From Streptomyces sp. A3M-1-3 (GTDB lineage: Bacteria; Actinomycetota; Actinomycetes; Streptomycetales; Streptomycetaceae), in contig NZ_JANAVP010000002.1 of assembly GCF_024213665.1 (NCBI RefSeq), positions 117,536-181,535 on the forward strand: DNA of 64,000 nt, written 5' to 3'. The position numbers and the translations under genes are program-made. The notes beneath the pieces are model-generated. The model saw only the letters and a list, made by a program, of their open reading frames with translations. It made no database searches and was not told where the DNA came from. Below, piece by piece: positions 48,785 through 48,887 of this stretch. Positions within the stretch are counted from its first letter, which is position 1. Every line of letters starts with the position of its first letter.

Positions 48785-48800
48785 TCGCTTGCCGGGGGCC
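48768..48800. terminator. Terminator shared by channel gene and thrS 3' end
   Basis: Perfect 13-bp stem GGCCCCCGGCAAG with CTTGCCGGGGGCC and a 7-nt loop containing the channel stop codon. It would also end a thrS transcript that has passed through the CRISPR-like element at 48799-48887. Confidence 0.85.
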
Positions 48801-48887
48801 CGTAACCCCCGCGCCGGCGGGACAAGGTCGACATCTGCCACGTCCGGCCGATGGCGTCCGGATCACCCCCGCTCAAGCGGGGACCAC
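48799..48887 (-). CRISPR. Solitary CRISPR-like mini-array in thrS 3' UTR
   Basis: On the minus strand, beginning two bases after the thrS stop: (1) a 29-bp repeat (48887-48859) that starts GTGGTCCCCGC, has loop TTGA, and ends GCGGGGGTGATCCG, the form of actinobacterial type I-E repeats with a 6-bp CCCCGC/GCGGGG stem. (2) A 33-bp spacer (48858-48826) beginning GACGCCATCGGCCGG. (3) A degenerate repeat (48825-48799) keeping GTCCC, a CCCGC-cggc-GCGGG stem and GGGGGTTA. The spacer equals thrS 49392-49360 in 31 of 33 bases. No cas genes or leader are seen in the window. Repeat identity is from memory of type I-E consensus. Confidence 0.72.

Follow-up and report, generated by a model that had tools for sequence, protein, structure and literature searches.

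The threonyl-tRNA synthetase gene thrS of Streptomyces sp. A3M-1-3, located in a stretch of 64,000 nucleotides (nt) that was analysed as a whole and is referred to here as the window (contig NZ_JANAVP010000002.1, positions 117,536 to 181,535), is followed by a solitary repeat-spacer-repeat unit resembling a minimal array of clustered regularly interspaced short palindromic repeats (CRISPR) of type I-E. Units of the same layout stand behind thrS in related bacteria, where most of their spacers are segments of thrS that fit the thrS of other species better than the one beside them. With somewhat better than even confidence, we favour the view that the unit is a guide linked to a resistant thrS allele that would remove other alleles, i.e., an allele-exclusion or cleave-and-rescue-like module. 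The facts read from the sequences are strong, and it is from them that we infer processing, cutting and spread.

The unit behind thrS

The mini-array downstream of thrS in the window is real. The gene itself (48889..50865, minus strand, 658 amino acids, stop codon at 48889-48891), which is the single thrS match in its genome, would serve both as host transcript and as target, and is predicted to be a resistant allele. Two bases past its stop, on the thrS strand, starts the first repeat, R1 (48859..48887, minus strand), a type I-E-like sequence of 29 nt, GTGGTCCCCGCTTGAGCGGGGGTGATCCG, with the 8-nt 5'-handle part intact. It is followed by a spacer of 32 nt (48827..48858, minus strand; 33 nt if 48826 is counted), recognized by sequence match as a segment of the thrS sense strand, and by a degenerate second repeat, R2 (48798..48826, or about 48797-48826, minus strand). 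The initial annotation had described this solitary I-E-like layout on the thrS strand of the 3' untranslated region, with a 5-base-pair stem and a 4-nt loop kept in R2, and both descriptions stand, though in the window the R2 fold is no better than that of shuffled sequence. As for the terminator that it had placed behind the unit, folding reveals a strong hairpin at 48770..48798 (minus strand; -27.8 kcal/mol, z -5.6), which is probably the thrS transcription terminator; a strict terminator scan found none there, since the hairpin has no T-run. Between the thrS stop and this hairpin there are the repeats and the spacer alone, and no endonuclease is encoded.

The key feature, absent from the initial annotation, is the origin of the spacer in thrS itself: in a search of its own genome, the spacer matches thrS at 49360-49392, about 500 bases upstream and on the same strand, at 31 of 33 positions. 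Over 32 nt (49361..49392, minus strand) the match is 30/32, only spacer positions 15 and 18 differing, and the matched segment encodes DAIGRTWQMST. At the position of the protospacer-adjacent motif (PAM; 49393..49395, minus strand), thrS carries CGC, an Arg codon, instead of AAG, a Lys codon. Arg at this codon was rejected as a mark of carriers, being weak because Arg is common there: among 140 genomes read by two patterns, 75 have Lys and 65 Arg, with 155 of the 295 genomes of a genus sample matching neither pattern and the Arg pattern also admitting AGG. A Fisher test on the same codon (p=0.0125) was not used, as the unit-less G138 and solo-repeat genomes had been counted as carriers. The window's copy, with its PAM-less own site, shows the logic of the proposed module and by itself would prove little; the weight of the evidence, at the level of sequence, lies with the family.

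A search pattern anchored on the thrS end and the repeat core, and blind to the spacer, recovered the layout behind thrS in 62 other loci (63 including the window, plus one truncated), so that the check on sister species called for by the initial annotation came out positive. All pattern-positive loci are from Streptomyces, Kitasatospora or presumed kin (two records are titled Streptosporangium and Saccharothrix). The window and 43 named genomes have a repeat-spacer-repeat, in two cases with the spacer shortened, and a solo repeat is found in 20 loci; in the genus sample, the strict pattern is matched by 18 of 295 genomes. The shortened spacers (L176 and L182), cut down to about 14-20 nt between two repeats, are perhaps deletion products. 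The solo repeats (20 named loci, e.g., L053, L054, L064, L065, and L067) have an R1-like start and an R2-like tail and look by eye like R1/R2 recombinants. That the window's unit is a fortuitous hairpin, or what is left of some unrelated orphan CRISPR array, would agree with the ordinary fold of its R2 and with the 33 loose repeat-like matches (up to two mismatches) in its genome, as compared with 11 in a control. This explanation, to which we give next to no credence, is refuted by the 62 further loci, which, together with 43 of 45 full-length spacers being aimed at thrS or its neighbour, make the unit more than chance.

Comparison of 35 units showed that spacer length is 32 nt in 29 of them, and that the last 8 nt of R1, the 5' handle, have a mean conservation of 0.84 versus 0.50 in R2, the R1 core being fixed by the search pattern and the R1 tail free of it. 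Across the family, R2 has lost its last 8 nt and retained its hairpin, so the CreA-like repeat degeneration suspected from the window extends to its relatives. A kept R1 handle and a lost R2 tail are what a one-spacer transcript processed by Cas6 would need, as in creA, which, according to the available text of PMC8501985 and PMC9458426, represses a toxin RNA by PAM- and seed-dependent pairing with its promoter.

On the other side of the unit, a plus-strand gene (48104-48784) with a TVGYGD potassium-channel motif is convergent with thrS, and its 3' end is overlapped by the hairpin.

Spacers, targets, and the positions that Cascade reads

In type I-E systems, every sixth guide base (positions 6, 12, 18, 24, and 30, hereafter 6n) is not read by Cascade; the remaining 27 are referred to here as read positions. 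That guide bases 6 and 12 are unpaired with the target in type I systems is stated in the available text of PMC8501985. Whole thrS regions were compared for 50 loci, i.e., the window, the 43 named carriers and 6 from the genus sample. Full-length spacers are present in 45, of which 40 map to thrS, three to a HIT gene, and two are unplaced. Dropped before the main test were L155 and L172 (solo repeat), L176 and L182 (shortened spacer), L190 (no repeat), L161 and L191 (no confident target), as well as L153, L163, and L169, whose HIT targets were handled apart. The HIT-family gene is next on the thrS strand (47479..48117 in the window, minus strand; its name rests on the translated sequence and not on a search of protein families), and the match of the L153 spacer to it is weak (own 20/27, others' median 20). 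The 40 thrS targets fall in 12 non-overlapping places and 14 registers, sense and antisense; two spacers (L152 and L174) were placed via other species' thrS (21/27), their own match being 17/27.

Identity to the carrier's own thrS ranges from 17 to 26 of 27 read positions, while the best fit to some other species' thrS is 23-27 of 27 (38 spacers). Measured against non-carrier genes, the fit between spacer and own gene is poorer at read positions (+1.34, p=1.3e-4), with no such deficit at 6n (+0.15, p=0.38); these and the other p-values are too small because carriers are related. Ranked against every window of its own gene by distance from the genus, the target window is unusually divergent (rank <0.05) in 17 of 38 cases at read positions, and in 3 of 38 at 6n. 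The non-carriers (L006-L033 and L225-L284) were drawn from a list ordered by how well each entry matched the spacer of the window, which inflates their figures at the target site labelled -504 (AAG in 73 of 83; 27/27 in 30 and 26/27 in 53 of 83), and results with site -504 removed are for this reason reported as well. Among the 60 genomes added, L267 and L274 turned out to have a solo repeat and were counted as solos.

At the PAM positions of the 40 own sites we found AAG 19 times, AAC 7, CGC 11, CGG 2, and CGT once, AAG being the PAM that has been reported for type I-E in S. avermitilis (PMC4762764, available text). No AAN PAM is present at 14 own sites, 9 of which have a perfect seed, whereas of the 26 with an AAN PAM, 23 have a broken seed; PAM loss alone seems to suffice for escape of the own gene. 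At site -1392, AAG is found in 83/83 non-carriers versus CGC, CGC, and CGT in the three carriers, and at site -1296 in 82/83 non-carriers versus CGC on the carrier side. When a gene is called targetable by an uncalibrated rule (AAN PAM, at most three read mismatches, at most one in the seed), the own thrS is so in 1 of 40 carriers versus 20.2 expected from non-carrier genes, in 1 of 32 versus 13.3 with site -504 removed, and in 2 versus 24.9 or 1 versus 14.1 under laxer or stricter cut-offs, respectively. The sole targetable carrier, G332, has no Cas6e or Cas7e match. Pairing each own gene with the nearest thrS untargeted at the site concerned gave 20 cases in which the relative alone is targetable and none in which the own gene alone is. 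In a test for scars of past targeting, susceptibility to the spacers of others is slightly lower in carriers (0.390) and solos (0.378), as compared with 0.456 (p=0.006 and 0.051, subject to the same sampling bias of non-carriers).

These data bear on the CreA-type regulation that the initial annotation had evoked, in which a crRNA-like (CRISPR RNA-like) molecule would guide Cascade to bind, and not cut, its own thrS, thereby lowering transcription. The degenerate two-repeat layout with its kept R2 hairpin and lost R2 tail resembles creA, and the spacers are partially complementary to their own gene. CreA, however, requires a PAM and seed pairing at positions 1-5 and 7-11 (PMC8501985, available text), and both are intact against the own thrS in 3/40 carriers (1/19 with Cas6e), whereas 17.1 would be expected from non-carriers. 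Moreover, 14 own sites are devoid of an AAN PAM, the spacers pair better with other species' thrS at read positions, and the targets are found within the coding region, in sense and antisense orientation, and not at a promoter. We consider this regulation of the own gene rather unlikely.

The unequal behaviour of read and unread positions is also visible in the spacers themselves. Rare letters, i.e., those present in less than 5% of 83 non-carrier thrS, occupy 82 of 200 cells at 6n (41%) in the 40 thrS-targeting spacers, as compared with 21 of 200 at other third-codon positions and 55 of 880 at the first two codon positions (6-11% outside 6n). The two third-codon classes show the same amount of variation among non-carriers (2.2 and 2.0 expected), and codon degeneracy is therefore no explanation for the excess. 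Counted by position modulo 6, rare letters number 82, 12, 21, 21, 10, and 12; an earlier non-carrier pool gave 81, 15, and 34 in three position classes and, with one spacer per register (14), 24, 3, 5, 8, 1, and 3 modulo 6. As far as such counts tell, spacers are free to change where Cascade does not read and are held to ordinary thrS where it does, so that change at every sixth base would be an in-nature readout of what Cascade reads.

Such a pattern is not what one would expect of an autoimmunity scar, namely spacers taken by accident from the own thrS, followed by escape mutations in the gene and an array now idle. The altered own targets, the AAG PAM typical of I-E acquisition (PMC4762764, available text), and a window genome without a Cas6e or Cas7e match could all be read in this way. 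Yet an idle spacer should drift evenly and not accumulate foreign letters at 6n, the same spot has been reused repeatedly with different pieces of thrS, and an accident leaves unexplained why the linked gene is always the source. A scar thus strikes us as unlikely.

Sparing of the own gene would fit any non-self target, including a mobile thrS carried by a phage or plasmid, against which the unit could provide ordinary immunity, with the own gene altered against self-cutting. We hold this to be very unlikely: viral contigs yielded no such unit, the phage thrS matches (32 records) reach at best 66% identity and none is of Streptomyces, and no plasmid thrS exceeds 80%, the listed Streptomyces plasmid thrS being at 52%. 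For chromosomal Streptomyces thrS, agreement with the spacers reaches 23-27 of 27 read positions, and some spacers aim at the HIT gene or at cobN (see below).

A second thrS was ruled out as a general target, since there is a single ThrS match in 28 of the 51 genomes searched, window included. Against 20 stretches of thrS paralogs, spacers score 19-28 of 32, never above the best other thrS except for L150, L161, and L191 versus their own copy. Extra thrS-like genes occur in 23 of the 51 genomes (including L193-L212), mostly as forms of about 400 amino acids matching residues 250-650. G295 has a near-full thrS-like copy, 51% identical, and G303 several extra thrS-like genes; in G185, one thrS motif pattern is matched twice, on contigs C9 and C31, which may reflect two copies of the gene.

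Guides of the proposed allele-exclusion module appear to turn over. Among 43 labelled carriers, the thrS tree calls for no fewer than 23 changes of target site, and five Kitasatospora-like genomes, for example, have four target sites. In G022, a two-repeat unit lies five bases past the stop of cobN (L292 2007-2096), a gene with an NCBIfam TIGR02257 match over its C-terminal part, and its spacer is antisense to cobN. This spacer matches its own cobN at 19/27 read positions (20/32 in total, not above the reversed-spacer control, 20). Its fit to the cobN copies in Tsukamurella, Streptantibioticus, and Nonomuraea is better, at 23-24 of 27, and in each of these other genera positions 6, 12, 24, and 30 are mismatched. 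No Cas6e match was found in the G022 genome.

Cas genes in the carriers

For the window, the Cas6e that was envisaged as cutting a crRNA-like RNA out of the thrS message is not found: its genome has no match to Cas6e (PF08798) or Cas7e (PF09344), Cas1 and Cas3 not having been searched there. With no cas genes found, the window's copy of the unit is probably dormant. Other carriers fare better in this respect, as Cas6e and Cas7e occur together in 20 of the 43 named array genomes. One full I-E cas operon was checked in a carrier, and resident I-E-type repeats with the same core are present at 9 of 12 cas loci of Cas-positive carriers, with a period of 61 in 8 of 9. R1 is identical to the commonest resident repeat at 16-23 of 29 positions, the two lowest values being opposite-strand or poor picks, and the assignment of the repeat to type I-E made in the initial annotation is upheld.

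Several points weigh against a guide that excludes other alleles. The weakest point of the proposal is that enrichment of Cas6e in carriers is not clear, the 20/43 being set against 120/295 in the genus sample, although 13 of the 18 pattern-positive genomes in that sample do have a match, one of them a fragment. Dependence on a resident system is thus not supported, and either a module moving between genomes or frequent cas loss would be needed. Spacer upkeep is equal in Cas6e-less and Cas6e-bearing carriers, the 6n pattern being alike in both. In the own genes, rare letters are raised at 6n too (14, expected 2.2), though to a smaller extent than at the remaining positions (95, expected 6.2), and PAM-less own sites are no worse than others' at read positions (+0.32, p=0.36). 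Finally, AAC or AAT as a working PAM for these Cascades is an assumption, to be added to the uncalibrated targetability rule and the relatedness of carriers noted above.

A candidate natural drive and its relatives

In the mechanism that we propose, Cas6e supplied by the cell would release the guide RNA from the 3' tail of the thrS message, and this guide would direct Cascade-Cas3 to the thrS alleles of other strains, while the linked, altered thrS escapes. Since the guide travels with the allele that escapes it, a recipient of the block, through conjugation and homologous recombination, could exchange its former thrS for the incoming one. A cell already holding the block would be closed to foreign thrS.

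Parts of this scheme have counterparts elsewhere. Like CreTA/creA, as presented in the available text of PMC8501985 and PMC9458426, the unit consists of two degenerate repeats around one spacer outside normal arrays, would borrow Cas6 and Cascade from the host, and leaves positions 6 and 12 unread, here judged from sequence. Unlike creA, its spacer copies the coding sequence of a neighbour, fits other species' copies better than its own, and generally lacks the PAM and the seed complementarity to its own target (present at the 3/40 own thrS sites given above). Streptomyces type I-E arrays, according to the available text of PMC4762764, have the repeat core CCCCGC-N4-GCGGGG, 32-nt spacers, a period of 61, and an AAG PAM, and the unit, with its spacer of about 32 nt, resembles them in these traits. 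It differs from them in its one spacer, its fixed chromosomal spot, its derivation from a self gene, an R2 without the handle part, and in that cas genes are not regularly found in the same genome (neither Cas6e nor Cas7e for the window, 20/43 for other carriers). In phage T4, SegF and SegG are free-standing endonucleases of intronless homing and marker exclusion (PMC2988022, available text); as with these, a cutter beside a conserved gene and expressed from its transcript would attack the copies of relatives that lack it, with inheritance of the linked resistant allele. By sequence, both a distant target in a neighbouring conserved gene and a linked resistant allele are recognizable here. What the unit encodes, in contrast to the phage protein nucleases, is an RNA guide alone; cutting would fall to Cascade-Cas3 of the host.

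Synthetic cleave-and-rescue and toxin-antidote drives have been engineered in animals and plants with a linked Cas9, and thrS is an essential gene. Like these devices, the unit appears to couple a guide aimed at an essential gene with a resistant, recoded version of that gene; unlike them, it is natural, bacterial, and type I-E-like, and the cas genes either lie elsewhere or are missing. To our knowledge, cleave-and-rescue drives exist only as engineered devices, and no report of a system such as this one was found in the literature searched, which excluded preprints and most subscription papers. We therefore put forward, as a proposition whose chances we regard as evenly balanced, a natural RNA-guided gene drive in which a guide in an mRNA tail eliminates other alleles of thrS and its neighbour, the linked allele is recoded or PAM-less, and guides are replaced as resistance spreads, with a further instance beside cobN. 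If this is true, bacteria would have built a cleave-and-rescue drive from an immune system, complete with guide turnover and linked resistance, and synonymous codons would be the record of an arms race. CRISPR would then have a role in the competition between alleles of core genes and in the barriers to recombination between species.
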